From contig NZ_SRLD01000014.1 of the NCBI RefSeq assembly GCF_004745955.1, positions 1-64,000 of the forward strand: DNA of 64,000 nt. Reading direction: 5' to 3'. Shown here piece after piece: positions 8,133 to 12,548 of this stretch (position 1 is the stretch's first letter; each line of letters opens with the position of its first letter). This DNA is from Hymenobacter elongatus (GTDB taxonomy: Bacteria > Bacteroidota > Bacteroidia > Cytophagales > Hymenobacteraceae). The notes below the pieces were generated by a model, which was not told where the DNA came from, ran no database searches, and was given only the letters and a program-made list of their open reading frames with translations. The translations under genes and the position numbers were made by a program.

Positions 8133-9338
8133 TTAATTCCAGCCGTCGTTTTCCTTCTTGTCCTCCTTCTTGCGTTTCTCTTTGCGCTTGCTGCTGCCTT
8201 CCTCGTTTTTGGTTTTCACCTTCACTTTTTCCGGCTCTGCCAGTGGGGTTGCCGGGGCTGGTGTGACCGGGGCCGGCACGGCCGGGGCGGGCTCCTCGGC
8301 GGGTGGTGCTACCATATCCTGCGCCGAGTTGATTTGGTCAGCTTTTTCCACGGCCTTTTCCTTGTGCAGGGCCAGTAGCAGATCCTGGGTAATCAACTCG
8401 TTTTTGTCCCAGGCTTTCAACTCGATGGCCAGTTTCTCTTTCTCTTCTTTGCCGGGCTTGTTTCCGAGCAGTGCATCCAGGTCGGGCTTGCCCGCGTCCT
8501 GCCACGCCGACAGCCACATGGAGGCCACCATCGTCGGGGCCTGCTTGAGCCGGTAGGCCACCTGCCCGCCTACTTCCTTGTGGTAAGCATCGGCAAAGGC
8601 GTCGGAATAGGCCCGGCGGGTTTTGCCAAACTTGTGGGAAAACGTGTACTTGGTTTCAGTCGTGAAGGTGCGCGTCACTTTTTCCTCTTTGTCGAAGGTG
8701 TCACCCAGGAAGCCATACGACTCCTGCACCGACGTCCAGATGGCGCGGAGGGGGTCTTTCAGGTACTCCGCTTTCTCGCAGTCCAGCTTATACTCAGCTA
8801 AGTGGCGCTCGGGTAGCTTCGATTCCCAGAGGCTGTGCATGCCCTGCTGGTTGGTCAGTTGCCCGTCGTAGTTCATGGTGGTGTGCAGGGGCACGTAGGC
8901 ATCGGCTATGTAGTGGCCCAACTCGGCCGACAGGCGCACGATGGCCACGGAGTCGCGCTGGCGGAAGGCTTCGGTCAGGGCTTCCTTGGTTTCGAGCACC
9001 GTCCAGGGCACCGTACCGTATTTGCGCAGCGTATCGGCCGAATATTTGGCCGTGGCTTTTTCCCAGAGCTTTGGCATGGCTCCAAACGGGTCTTCGCCGT
9101 AATGGTCCATATCGATGTAGTGCTTGGGGGCTTCCTTGGGGTCGTCGTCGCGCCGCTCGTCGGGCGCGGTGGCCATCCGCACTATTTCGGGCAGGTGGCG
9201 GTAATAAAAGCTCTGCATAGATTTAGGCAGAGCATACACGGCCAGCTGGTTGATGGTGCGGTGGGCCAGAAAGCCCCAGCCCGACGATAAGAAGGGACAC
9301 AGCAGCACCAGCAGCAGCGTAAGAATATGCTTTTTCAT
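8133..9338 (-). CDS. S1/P1 nuclease / zinc phospholipase C-like secreted protein
   Basis: The fold family binds three zinc ions and hydrolyses phosphodiesters (nucleic acids or phospholipids). The 401 residues start with a signal peptide. The mature chain would begin near Trp21-Gly22, and an N-terminal Trp is itself a zinc ligand in this family. His26 (GFLAHRTIN) follows, then KHYIDMDHYG, HYIADAYVPLHTTMNYDGQ and HSLWESKLPER, which supply the usual His/Asp/Glu ligands. The last ~70 residues form a Pro/Ala/Lys/Glu-rich tail that is probably disordered. It is periplasmic or exported; the substrate cannot be told from sequence. Confidence 0.88.
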   Translation of the reverse strand: MKKHILTLLLVLLCPFLSSGWGFLAHRTINQLAVYALPKSMQSFYYRHLPEIVRMATAPDERRDDDPKEAPKHYIDMDHYGEDPFGAMPKLWEKATAKYSADTLRKYGTVPWTVLETKEALTEAFRQRDSVAIVRLSAELGHYIADAYVPLHTTMNYDGQLTNQQGMHSLWESKLPERHLAEYKLDCEKAEYLKDPLRAIWTSVQESYGFLGDTFDKEEKVTRTFTTETKYTFSHKFGKTRRAYSDAFADAYHKEVGGQVAYRLKQAPTMVASMWLSAWQDAGKPDLDALLGNKPGKEEKEKLAIELKAWDKNELITQDLLLALHKEKAVEKADQINSAQDMVAPPAEEPAPAVPAPVTPAPATPLAEPEKVKVKTKNEEGSSKRKEKRKKEDKKENDGWN

Positions 9339-9471: not shown

Positions 9472-9529
9472 GAGGCCCGCGCAAGCCCCCAAGCTGCCCA
9501 ATCTTTTTTCTGCCTGCTCAGACTTTTTT

Positions 9530-10573
9530 ATGACGCTGATATCCAAAAAGAAAATCAACTATACCATTGGGACCGAGCTGCGGGGCTATTTGCAGGACTA
9601 CGACCGGGAAAGCCCGTTGCCCGTTACTTACCGCGACCTGCTGCGCTTCAGCGGCTCGTTTCCACTCATGGACCGCAATGGCCGTGACACGCTCTGGCAA
9701 ACCGTTTATTATGAGCCCAGTACGCTGGTCGAGCTGTCGGCGGGCCTGGCCGAGGTGTATGCCCTGCTGCGCACCGACGGCGACTTGTCTTTCACTGACC
9801 ACCTGCTGGCCGACCGCATCGACTACTGCCAGTTCGGCAACAGCAACCCGTTTCGGGTCCGCATCGTCAATCAGCTCAACGACAACTACGACTATTTCTA
9901 TGTGAAGCGGGCCGATGCTTCCCGCGTGTACGGCCTGGAACTGGAACATTTGTTGTCGCCTAACCGCATCAACTATCTGGTGTGCGGCGACTCCCTCATT
10001 GAGGAGCACATTGCCGGCATTCCCGGCGACGACTTCATCCGCGACCATCTCAAGCGGCCCCACCTCAATCAGGTGCGCATCGCCAAAGAGTTTGTAAAAT
10101 TCAATGAGCGGTGCTTTGCCCGCCTGCTCGGCGACATGCGCGCCTACAACTATGTCATCATTGCCACACCCGACTTCGAGGACGAGCAGTACCGCGTGCG
10201 AGCCATCGACTTCGACCAGCAGAGCTACGAGGGCAAAAAAACCATGTATCTGCCCCAGTTTTTTAAAGATAACCGCAAGGTGGTCCAGATGTGTAGCCAG
10301 CTGCTGACCACCGAAACCATCCGGCAGTACCAAGCCGAGGAACGCACCCTCATTGCCCGGCGCGTGCGGCTGGAGCGCTACCGCCTCAAAGGGTTGATGG
10401 ATATCATGCGGCACGACGAGGTATCGACGCCCGAAAAAACCGCCCAGCTTAAAGCCCAGCTCAACCAGCACTATGCCACCACCGCCTTCGACCGCTGCCG
10501 CAGCATGGGCGATGTGGTACACCAGAATCTGAAAATGATGCTCCTGGCCCGTCCGCGCCCCGACCAGGCCTAA
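9530..10573 (+). CDS. Uncharacterised protein with kinase-like motifs
   Basis: I do not recognise a named family for this 347-residue cytoplasmic protein. Several motifs appear in the order seen in the protein-kinase/APH fold. YFYVK places a candidate ATP-binding Lys at 126. SLIEEHIAGIPGDDFI at about 155-170 resembles a hinge or linker. GDMRAYNYVI puts Asp202 and Asn207 at the catalytic-loop spacing D-x4-N, and AIDFDQ puts Asp227 at the magnesium-binding position. A glycine-rich loop is not obvious. The first ~100 residues and the Arg-rich C-terminus are unassigned. The stop overlaps that of the converging cinA remnant. A kinase role is inference. Confidence 0.75.
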   Translation: MTLISKKKINYTIGTELRGYLQDYDRESPLPVTYRDLLRFSGSFPLMDRNGRDTLWQTVYYEPSTLVELSAGLAEVYALLRTDGDLSFTDHLLADRIDYCQFGNSNPFRVRIVNQLNDNYDYFYVKRADASRVYGLELEHLLSPNRINYLVCGDSLIEEHIAGIPGDDFIRDHLKRPHLNQVRIAKEFVKFNERCFARLLGDMRAYNYVIIATPDFEDEQYRVRAIDFDQQSYEGKKTMYLPQFFKDNRKVVQMCSQLLTTETIRQYQAEERTLIARRVRLERYRLKGLMDIMRHDEVSTPEKTAQLKAQLNQHYATTAFDRCRSMGDVVHQNLKMMLLARPRPDQA

Positions 10574-10844
10574 GCCGTCATCTTCTCCTGATCGGGCGGG
10601 AAGCGGTCCAGCAATTCGCCCAGCTTGCGGTACACGAAATCGACGGCTTGGTGTCGCACGCTCTGGCAGTCGCCCTGAAATTCCTGCCGGTGCCCTGCGG
10701 CGCGGTTCTGGTACAGAAAGGCATAGAACAGTGTGCCGGCCGGTTTTCCTCAGTTTCGGAACCGCCAGCCGCGCACAGACCCGTGACGGCCACGCACACG
10801 TCGGCCCCGAGCTTTTTGGTAGTTGCGGGGCACGTAGCCAGGCG
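10570..10844 (-). pseudogene. Frameshifted 3' remnant of cinA/pncC (nicotinamide-nucleotide amidase)
   Basis: Translated on the minus strand directly after the amidohydrolase stop, one frame reads KLGADVCVAVTGLCAAGG and then ENRPA. The expected continuation GTLFYAFLYQNRAAG, FQGDCQSVRHQAVDFVYRKL and a stop at 10570 lies in another frame. The shift falls near 10733-10743 in a CCGGCCGG run. This matches the C-terminal half of CinA/PncC, including the AVTGxxxxGG and NRP-G-T motifs. The N-terminal half with the catalytic ESCTGG motif is absent. So this is a truncated and frameshifted remnant, likely left when the amidohydrolase gene came to lie next to it. A sequencing error could explain the shift but not the truncation. 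Confidence 0.65.
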
Positions 10845-12140
10845 CTATTCCTGCCGATGTACTACCCCTTGTTTCATCACGAAGCGCACGCGCTGCATCG
10901 CCTTGATATCCTGAATCGGGTCGCCTTCCACGGCTACTATGTCGGCCAGCTTACCGGCTTCCAGGGTGCCGAGGCTTTCGGTTTGGCCCAGCAGCTCAGC
11001 CGCCGACACGGTAGCGGCCCGCAAGGCTTCGTAAGCGGGCATTCCGGCCTCTACCATGTACTGAAACTCCAGGGCATTGACGCCGTGCCGAAACACGGAA
11101 GCATCGGTGCCGAACGCAATTTTCACTCCCGCTTTGTAGGCTTTGCCAAAGGTAGTTTGCAGCTTCGGCCCGATGCTCAGGGCCTTGGGCGTTACCAGCG
11201 GCGGGTAGTAGTTGGGGATTTTGGCCGAGTCGGCTACCGACTTGCCCGCCGTAATGGTGGGCACGTACCAGGTGCCGAATTTCTTCATCAGCTTCATCGT
11301 TTCCTCGTCCATCAGCGTGCCGTGCTCAATGCTGGTAACGCCCGCCCGGATGGCGCGCTTCATGCCTTCGGCGCCGTGGGCGTGGCAGGCCACTGTCAGG
11401 CCCAGGTCGCGGGCGGTTTCCACGATGGCCTTTATCTCTTCTTCCGTCATTTGGGCGCTGCTGCCGTCTTTGGCCACGCTGAGCACGCCGCCGGTAGAGG
11501 CAATCTTGATCAGGTCGGAACCACGCTTGTACTGCTCGCGCACGGCTTGGCGGCACTGCTCGGGGCCGTTGGCCACGCCATCGGCGGGGCCGGGCACGCC
11601 CATCAGGTCCTGGCGGTAGCCGTTGGTGGGGTCCATGTGGCCGCCGGTGCCCGATATGGCCCGGCCCGCCGTGAAAATGCGCGGCCCCACTACCTGGCCC
11701 CGGTTGATGGCATTGCGCAGGGCCACGTTCACCCCCGAGCCGCCCAGGTCGCGCACCGTTGTGAAGCCGGCGAGTAGGGTTTTGCGGGCGTGGTCGAGCG
11801 AGCCAAAGGCTACGTCGGCGGGGTTTTCGGTGAGTTCCTTCAGGAAGTTGTCTTTGCTGGTTTCGCCTTCCATATGCACGTGGCAGTCGATGAGGCCGGG
11901 TAGCACCGTCTTGTTTTTCAGGTCGATAACCTTGTCGGTGCCGCTGCCCATGGCGTAGCCCGCCTGCACGGCCACCACGCGGCCCTGCTCGACGACGATG
12001 GTCATTTCGGTCTGGGCCTTGGTAGAGCGCATGTCCAGCAGCCGCCCGCAGTGCAGGTAGGTTTTCTGGGCCCAGGCGGGCGCGTGCGTCAGGGTGCAGA
12101 GTACGAAGGCCGCCAGAGTAGCGCGTCGGATGTGAAGCAT
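10845..12140 (-). CDS. Secreted amidohydrolase (imidazolonepropionase/prolidase-like)
   Basis: This is a metal-dependent hydrolase of the amidohydrolase superfamily, likely acting on peptides or cyclic amides in the periplasm. From ATG 12140 the 431 residues start with a signal peptide (ending APAWAQ). The TIM-barrel metal site follows: LIDCHVHMEGE (HxH), LIKIASTGG (the bridging Lys), ACHAHGAEG and SIEHGT (two His), and FGTDASVFRHG (Asp). The family resembles Xaa-Pro dipeptidases and imidazolonepropionase-like enzymes, and the substrate is unknown. The open frame extends to 12260, but the signal peptide fixes the start at 12140. Its stop directly abuts the cinA remnant. Confidence 0.9.
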   Translation of the reverse strand: MLHIRRATLAAFVLCTLTHAPAWAQKTYLHCGRLLDMRSTKAQTEMTIVVEQGRVVAVQAGYAMGSGTDKVIDLKNKTVLPGLIDCHVHMEGETSKDNFLKELTENPADVAFGSLDHARKTLLAGFTTVRDLGGSGVNVALRNAINRGQVVGPRIFTAGRAISGTGGHMDPTNGYRQDLMGVPGPADGVANGPEQCRQAVREQYKRGSDLIKIASTGGVLSVAKDGSSAQMTEEEIKAIVETARDLGLTVACHAHGAEGMKRAIRAGVTSIEHGTLMDEETMKLMKKFGTWYVPTITAGKSVADSAKIPNYYPPLVTPKALSIGPKLQTTFGKAYKAGVKIAFGTDASVFRHGVNALEFQYMVEAGMPAYEALRAATVSAAELLGQTESLGTLEAGKLADIVAVEGDPIQDIKAMQRVRFVMKQGVVHRQE

Positions 12141-12287
12141 AGAAAACACGGGTGGAAAGTGGAGCGAGGCCGGAAGATACAACATAGATAAACGCTGCAT
12201 GCCGCCTACATCCGCCGGATTATGTACCTTGACGCCGCGCCTGATTTTCGGGCGTATCATCTCTATTCGTCACACTTTTCCGATTGT

Positions 12288-12548
12288 ATGGCCACCCACG
12301 AAGAATTCGAAGCCGCCGCCCAACGCTCCCAGCAGCTGCCCTCCAAGCCCAACAACATGGTGCTGCTCCAGCTGTATTCCCTCTACAAGCAAGCCTCCGA
12401 AGGCGACGTAACCGGCGACCGGCCCGGCGGCTTCGACTTCAAAGGCATTGCCAAGTATGATGCCTGGGCCGGCCTGAACGGCAAAAGTAAAGATGCCGCC
12501 CGGCAGGAGTACGTTGATCTGGTAAATTCCCTGTTCCAGGGCGCGTAA
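12288..12548 (+). CDS. Acyl-CoA-binding protein
   Basis: Small cytosolic ACBPs bind medium- and long-chain acyl-CoA esters. The 86-residue product has the four-helix ACBP pattern: FEAAAQRSQQLPSKPNN, then LLQLYSLYKQASEGDV, then FKGIAKYDAWAGLNGKS and EYVDLVNSL. The residues that contact the CoA and acyl chain in known ACBPs (YxLYKQA, the Lys and Tyr of AKYDAW) are present. Start 12288 is the standard ACBP N-terminus; the frame opens earlier at 12222 without homology. ACBPs are mainly eukaryotic but are found in some Bacteroidota. Confidence 0.93.
   Translation: MATHEEFEAAAQRSQQLPSKPNNMVLLQLYSLYKQASEGDVTGDRPGGFDFKGIAKYDAWAGLNGKSKDAARQEYVDLVNSLFQGA

Follow-up and report, generated by a model that had tools for sequence, protein, structure and literature searches.

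The window analysed here is a stretch of 64,000 nucleotides from Hymenobacter elongatus. On its forward strand, at positions 9530-10573, lies an open reading frame that starts with an ATG at 9530, ends with a stop codon at 10571-10573 and codes for a product of 347 residues. On reading its sequence, this protein appears to be soluble, with no obvious signal peptide or membrane helix. An earlier note on this DNA had recognized four protein-kinase-like motifs in it (VK, EEHIAG, GDMRAYN and AIDFD), and all of them lie at the residues and in the order that it gave, namely V125-K126, E158-E-H-I-A-G163, G201-D-M-R-A-Y-N207 and A225-I-D-F-D229. The kinase-like order of these motifs exceeds chance, and conservation spans the entire length of the family. 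The gene and its putative active-site elements are as follows.

9530..10573, forward strand: coding sequence, stop included, of a 347-residue kinase-like protein with a predicted PI3K/PIKK-type fold (open reading frame and translation, whole-length relatives, AlphaFold2 model with a mean pLDDT of 90.4)
9836..9853, forward strand: residues 103-108, G-N-S-N-P-F, a loop flanked by two strands that may bind the nucleotide in place of a glycine loop (model and conservation)
9905..9925, forward strand: residues 126-132, K-R-A-D-A-S-R, in which the lysine presumably binds ATP and is followed by D at +3 and R at +6 (K126, D129 and R132 in 149 of 149 family rows)
9995..10018, forward strand: residues 156-163, L-I-E-E-H-I-A-G, presumed hinge (E158, H160 and G163 in 149 of 149 rows)
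10130..10150, forward strand: residues 201-207, G-D-M-R-A-Y-N, presumed catalytic loop with D202 and N207 (conservation)
10202..10219, forward strand: residues 225-230, A-I-D-F-D-Q, equivalent of the DFG motif, with the presumed metal-binding D227 (D-F-D-Q in 149 of 149 rows)

In the family alignment of 149 rows, K126, D129, R132, E137, E139, E158, H160, G163 and P165 are identical throughout, as are G201, D202, M203, N207, D227, F228, D229 and Q230, together with N104 and P107 of the candidate nucleotide-binding loop. In a smaller alignment (A1, 56 rows, 65% mean column identity), K126, E158, G201, D202, M203, N207, D227, F228, D229 and Q230 are invariant. The motif residues on which the kinase proposal was based are therefore conserved among homologues, and D129 and R132 add a K-x2-D-x2-R arrangement after the lysine that the earlier note had overlooked. 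Position 204 is an arginine in 131 of the 149 rows and a histidine in the other 18. The histidine rows come from Cyclobacteriaceae, Spirosomataceae and neighbouring groups and coincide with the full set of 18 rows under a single tree fork with a support of 98; hence, the residue seems to have switched once.

Of the PI3K-branch signatures K-x2-D-D-L-R, G-D-R-H-x2-N and D-F-G, the family shows the reduced forms K-x2-D-x2-R, G-D-x-[RH]-x2-N and D-F in order; missing are the second D of the first, the R directly after the catalytic D and the final G. Set against PDB sequences, the order and spacing of K-x2-D-x2-R, [LIM]-I-E, G-D-x-[RH]-x2-N and [IV]-D-F resemble those of VPS34, PI4KIIIb and ATR, except that the hinge E is missing in human VPS34 and that a K precedes the catalytic D in PI4KIIIb. 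The likeness extends to the individual elements. Loop 103-108 is comparable to F-K-S-A-L-M-P of VPS34, the spacing of K-x-x-D-x-x-R equals that of the K-x-x-D-D-L-R motif of PI3K/PIKK kinases, and the hinge L-I-E-E-H-I-A-G is comparable to G-M-I-E-P-V of PI4KIIIb and G-I-I-E-W-V of ATR. Similarly, G-D-M-R-A-Y-N can be compared with G-D-R-H-x-x-N of VPS34, and A-I-D-F-D with the H-I-D-F-G and H-V-D-F-N found in PI3K/PIKK-type sequences. A loosely spaced pattern (K..D..R, then D.[RH]..N, then [IVL]DF) was met by 141 of the 149 family rows, by none of the 2124 remaining stop-to-stop frames that were 150 residues or longer (185 records) and by one of 29,800 shuffled family rows; as this pattern was devised after seeing the match and with both sides known, the counts indicate rarity and do not amount to a planned test.

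Structure prediction gave a confident two-lobed model of the window protein (pTM 0.87, with the 56 rows of A1 as input), the kind of bilobal kinase fold that the earlier note had anticipated. The N-terminal lobe is made of strands, with K126 on strand 119-127, followed by helix 130-142 and by strands 149-159 leading into the hinge. The C-terminal lobe is helical; in it, the catalytic loop follows helix 181-198 and the DFG-like motif follows strand 220-225. A second prediction, for the Verrucomicrobiales member L104, which is 61% identical, reached a pLDDT of 92.4 and a pTM of 0.89 from an alignment (A2) that has most rows in common with A1, so that the two models are partly dependent. Foldseek ranked VPS34 at the top for both models (E 8.3e-5 for the window protein and 3.6e-5 for L104), with a modest TM-score by query of 0.41; the other rows listed were mostly protein kinases with poor TM-scores or superpositions. 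We then compared both models by a second structural aligner with Foldseek's top 1000 chains, and all of the best 50 entries shown for each model were PI3K, PI4K or PIKK kinases. For the window protein, these included VPS34 (Z 13.5, rmsd 4.1, 265 aligned residues), Tel1 (13.4) and PI4KIIIb (12.9); for L104, Tel1 (Z 13.0, rmsd 4.2, 262 aligned residues), VPS34 (12.6) and PI4KIIIb (12.5). Differences in Z of less than 1 were counted as ties, and hence the lipid and the protein kinases of the PI3K branch are indistinguishable by structure score. The identity to the best matches is about 10%, and a Z near 13 at 4 Å with such an identity speaks for a shared fold and not for a shared function. For the window protein, these alignments begin at residues 13-30, so the first 100 residues, which the earlier note had cited as atypical, are not an extra part. 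The missing glycine loop, also cited as atypical, is usual in the PI3K/PI4K/PIKK branch. Taken as a model-based assignment, the two-lobed protein-kinase-like (PKL) fold is almost certain. Placement in the PI3K/PIKK branch, which rests on structure and motif order, is quite likely.

Sequence searches are silent about this kinship. The window protein matches no model of Pfam, NCBIfam or PADLOC. When 56 members were compared with Pfam at E values up to 10, a range in which the HMMER filters drop most matches above 0.1, they met 20 scattered families, none of them a kinase by name and none of them PF00454, HipA_C, APH, CotH or SelO. PHROGs returned two weak families of unknown function for the window protein (E 0.026 and 0.34). 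A phmmer search of the PDB with the same protein gave two insignificant matches (E 0.71 and 0.86), one of which places residues 226-285 on a receptor kinase. The family profile, searched against the PDB up to E 10, returned two non-kinases and no kinase or PI3K chain. PF00454, at its cut-off of 27.1 bits, does not detect the family and had no hit in the 61 genomes searched from the window's phylum, among them that of the window itself; in 145 genomes of the Verrucomicrobiota-side phylum it gave only two sub-threshold matches, both in long frames to which the family profile has no match. Judged by its sequence, then, the window protein is not filed as a PF00454 member. An hhalign comparison of the family with a three-sequence PI3K/PI4K/ATR profile matched catalytic loop to catalytic loop and DFG loop to DFG loop, with a non-significant score of 11.73 that 186 of 200 column shuffles equalled or exceeded and that the reversed profile surpassed (15.76); such a thin profile makes this failure weak evidence. 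No PI3K-like protein with which to enlarge the profile turned up in viral contigs. Accordingly, we do not claim sequence homology to PI3K, PI4K or PIKK kinases: since the profile-profile test was null and PF00454 is blind to the family, the kinship has to be read from structure and motif order. The family is unnamed in Pfam (56 members searched) and in NCBIfam (window protein alone searched), and we recognized no description of it within open-licence papers. These data support a real, conserved and unnamed kinase-fold family, a result that both upholds and sharpens the original kinase call.

The nearest named relatives belong to Hymenobacter species (72-80% identity), and relatives align across the whole protein. 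The gene is carried by 45 of 59 genomes picked as relatives and by 99 of 395 genomes of the window's phylum (51 of 170 genera), 97 of them with one match; full-length matches in this phylum are at least 44% identical to the window protein. One genome (G148) has two matches, the second of which (contig C3, 105236-106204) is 44% identical to the window protein, and another (G305) retains no more of the gene than two fragments, interrupted by stops, on contig C1 at 3158139-3158410. A scan of genome contigs confirmed at least 576 stretches, of which 80 were kept; these are mostly from Bacteroidota, with four from Verrucomicrobiota (L104, L106, L116 and L127) and one from a metagenome-assembled genome titled Fibrobacteres (L097). 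The family is thus wider than the Cytophagales, to which the earlier note had tentatively assigned it. In the phylum of the Verrucomicrobiales genome L104, 36 of 194 genomes carry the gene, with one match each. In the phylum of L097, the gene occurs in that genome only, out of 60, and for this reason its presence there is likely due to transfer or misbinning. A quick tree of 125 rows placed the 23 Verrucomicrobiota-side rows in two groups (8 and 15) among Bacteroidota, with three label changes, a topology that would suit more than one transfer in a tree with weak deep forks and a midpoint root. The family sits on chromosomal contigs, nearly always with one match per genome. It had no match in 72,556 plasmid records or 50,697 phage records, scanning viral contigs by pattern gave none either, and we rejected the idea of a mobile-element gene. 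Two open frames, L166 3222-5120 (632 aa) and L147 910-2553 (547 aa), have long N-terminal parts ahead of the kinase (about 260 and 200 residues, respectively), in which no Pfam domain was found.

The genomic context offers no constant companion. We clustered the neighbouring frames of the 80 loci, listed the next-door frames of 74 of them and of 20 further regions, and scanned 28 neighbours against Pfam. Antisense shadow frames excepted, the largest neighbour clusters outside Hymenobacter reach 10 of 61 loci. Neighbours vary by family: malic enzyme and MlaE (L138), FtsW/RodA (L129), a SpoU methylase (L089), an acyltransferase (L090), an amidohydrolase (L096), DUF3793 (L116) and others, with no recurrent lipid gene in the 28 scanned. 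Synteny is limited to clades, as in Chitinophagaceae, where an aldolase and a periplasmic-binding-like protein were read from the sequences. An operon or partner gene was rejected, as no neighbour recurs broadly among the loci examined; because neighbours differ from family to family, the gene looks stand-alone. An ABC ATPase and ABC-2 permease pair adjoins the gene in L171 (2178-6160) and L180 (5010-6758), L171 additionally has an NA37 nucleoid-associated gene, and frames of similar sizes flank the gene in L173, L177 and L178.

Among characterized kinases, VPS34 (the class III PI3-kinase, PIK3C3) has the catalytic domain that is the best or near-best structural match, and it shares K-x2-D-x2-R, G-D-x-[RH]-x2-N and I-D-F with the family in the same order. 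The differences are equally clear: about 10% identity, DFD instead of DFG, an M after the catalytic D, a D202-D227 spacing of 25 residues in the window protein compared with 18 in human VPS34, and no link to inositol synthesis. VPS34 also has C2 and helical domains, both of which the family lacks. The PIKKs (Tel1/ATM, ATR, mTOR and SMG1) tie with it in structural score, as judged from Tel1, and ATR shares the I-E of the hinge and has D-F-N. PIKKs carry FAT and FATC regions and a HEAT solenoid, for which there is no room in a whole protein of about 345 residues. PI4KIIIb superposes at 4.0 and 3.9 Å on the window and L104 models, respectively, and its hinge M-I-E-P-V resembles L-I-E-E-H; on the other hand, there is no significant sequence match between them, and its lipid substrate is unsupported for the family. 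HipA kinases are bacterial and belong to the same superfamily, but the HipA_C sequence signal is absent in the 56 members.

Our preferred reading, which we hold to be more likely than not, is an active, cytosolic phosphotransferase of the PI3K/PIKK fold that consists of the catalytic unit only and acts on a housekeeping substrate, probably other than an inositol lipid. Such an enzyme would be a small, soluble, single-chain member of the PI3K/PI4K/PIKK branch, pared down to its catalytic unit. ATP would be held between the two lobes by K126 and loop 103-108, and D202, with N207 and D227, would bind the metal and drive transfer of the gamma-phosphate. The substrate is probably a conserved cytosolic housekeeping component, with a protein, as for PIKKs, or a small metabolite likelier than an inositol lipid. 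Catalytic activity itself is predicted with considerable confidence. Pseudokinases usually lose one catalytic residue, and here every catalytic position is fixed, which makes an active phosphotransferase likelier than a scaffold or nucleotide sensor of kinase fold without catalysis. The latter possibility, raised in the earlier note, could draw on the missing glycine loop, on the noncanonical DFD and on the many residues conserved beyond the catalytic motifs; nevertheless, the identity of K126, D202, N207 and D227 in all 149 rows argues against it, and DFN in the PDB sequence of ATR sets a precedent for a noncanonical third position. We regard a pseudokinase as very unlikely.

The nature of the substrate and of the transferred group deserves closer attention. 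A bacterial kinase of phosphoinositides or other lipid head groups, acting on the membrane like VPS34 or PI4K, would agree with the presence of VPS34 and PI4KIIIb among the best structural matches, with the PI3K-like histidine at D+2 in 18 of 149 rows and with lipid-related neighbours at single loci, the acyltransferase of L090 and the MlaE of L138. Bacterial PI3K/PI4K enzymes also exist, among the injected effectors treated in PMC7298712. Against this, PIKK protein kinases match equally well, within the Z tie of 1, and no lipid gene was recurrent next to the family. Moreover, inositol-making carriers would be expected if an inositol lipid were the substrate, and the inositol-phosphate synthase Inos-1-P_synth (PF01658) is no commoner in carriers (16 of 99) than in non-carriers (46 of 296), an intersection counted by hand from listings on the assumption of the same 395-genome draw. 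It was not found in the window's own genome, which is among the 83 of 99 carriers that show none. An inositol-lipid substrate was thus rejected as far as co-occurrence is concerned, although the lack of the synthase is compatible with imported inositol. This missing inositol link, together with the tie between PIKKs and lipid kinases, ranks a protein or small molecule first. A substrate other than inositol lipids is therefore likely, and lipid-kinase activity in general improbable.

Two further alternatives concern chemistry and ancestry. Some families of the kinase fold perform other chemistry, and D-F-D-Q in place of DFG in 149 of 149 rows could hint at transfer of a non-phosphate group, by AMPylation as in SelO or by another ATP-driven ligation. 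Yet the best-listed folds and the motif order are those of phosphotransferases, and SelO is missing from the Pfam families that the 56 members met; we deem this alternative unlikely. HipA, APH and CotH kinases share the same superfamily fold, and the second structure comparison covered Foldseek's top 1000 chains only, so a divergent HipA-like or APH/CotH-like kinase might be considered instead of a member of the PI3K branch. Within those chains, no HipA, APH or CotH entry was among the 50 structures listed for either model. Against this ancestry speak the absence of HipA_C, APH and CotH from the Pfam matches at E up to 10 and the fact that no recurring small partner of toxin-antitoxin type was noticed among the neighbours listed; we consider it quite unlikely.

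Membrane identity, nutrient sensing and DNA-damage signalling in eukaryotes are controlled by PI3K, PI4K and PIKK kinases. A single-copy relative in shape, of about 345 residues, would offer a simple prokaryotic model of the PI3K-type catalytic unit, and the family would suggest that environmental bacteria have a step under strong constraint that is still undescribed. Risk1, introduced in PMC7298712 as a PI3K effector, and LepB, LegA5 and OpiA, named there as earlier bacterial phosphoinositide kinase effectors, are, in contrast, injected effectors of intracellular pathogens, all of them assigned to the PI3/PI4-kinase group. By their description, these secreted proteins stand apart from the present family, which is chromosomal, nearly always represented by a single match and devoid of a visible signal peptide. 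Kinase-like families of Legionella have been surveyed (PMC9758233), and the accessible portions of that paper and of PMC7298712 do not describe the present family. As a more speculative scenario, these proteins may form a conserved, endogenous, single-copy housekeeping kinase family of the PI3K/PIKK branch that is spread across Bacteroidota and was transferred to Verrucomicrobiota. It would be a free-standing catalytic unit that either gave rise to the eukaryotic lipid kinases and the DNA-damage and nutrient kinases or stood beside their origin, and it would serve an undescribed signalling or modification step in the physiology of these bacteria.

Several features surround the gene in the window. 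An antisense frame of 334 residues (9518-10522, reverse strand) overlaps it; its cluster spans 60 of the 80 loci, and it is presumably a shadow frame of the conserved gene. Before the kinase-like gene lie a manganese catalase (PF05067; 7081-8046, reverse strand) and an S1/P1-nuclease-like protein (PF02265, E 3.3e-8; 8136-9338, reverse strand). After it, at 10570-10850 on the reverse strand, there is a remnant, split between frames, that resembles the C-terminal part of what we read as a CinA-like gene; a whole gene of 176-177 residues occupies the same place in the Hymenobacter loci L060 (7199-7729) and L064 (7144-7677). Further downstream, at 12222-12545 on the forward strand, an acyl-CoA-binding protein (PF00887, E 1.5e-26), of a small family best known from eukaryotes, adjoins an amidohydrolase on the opposite strand.
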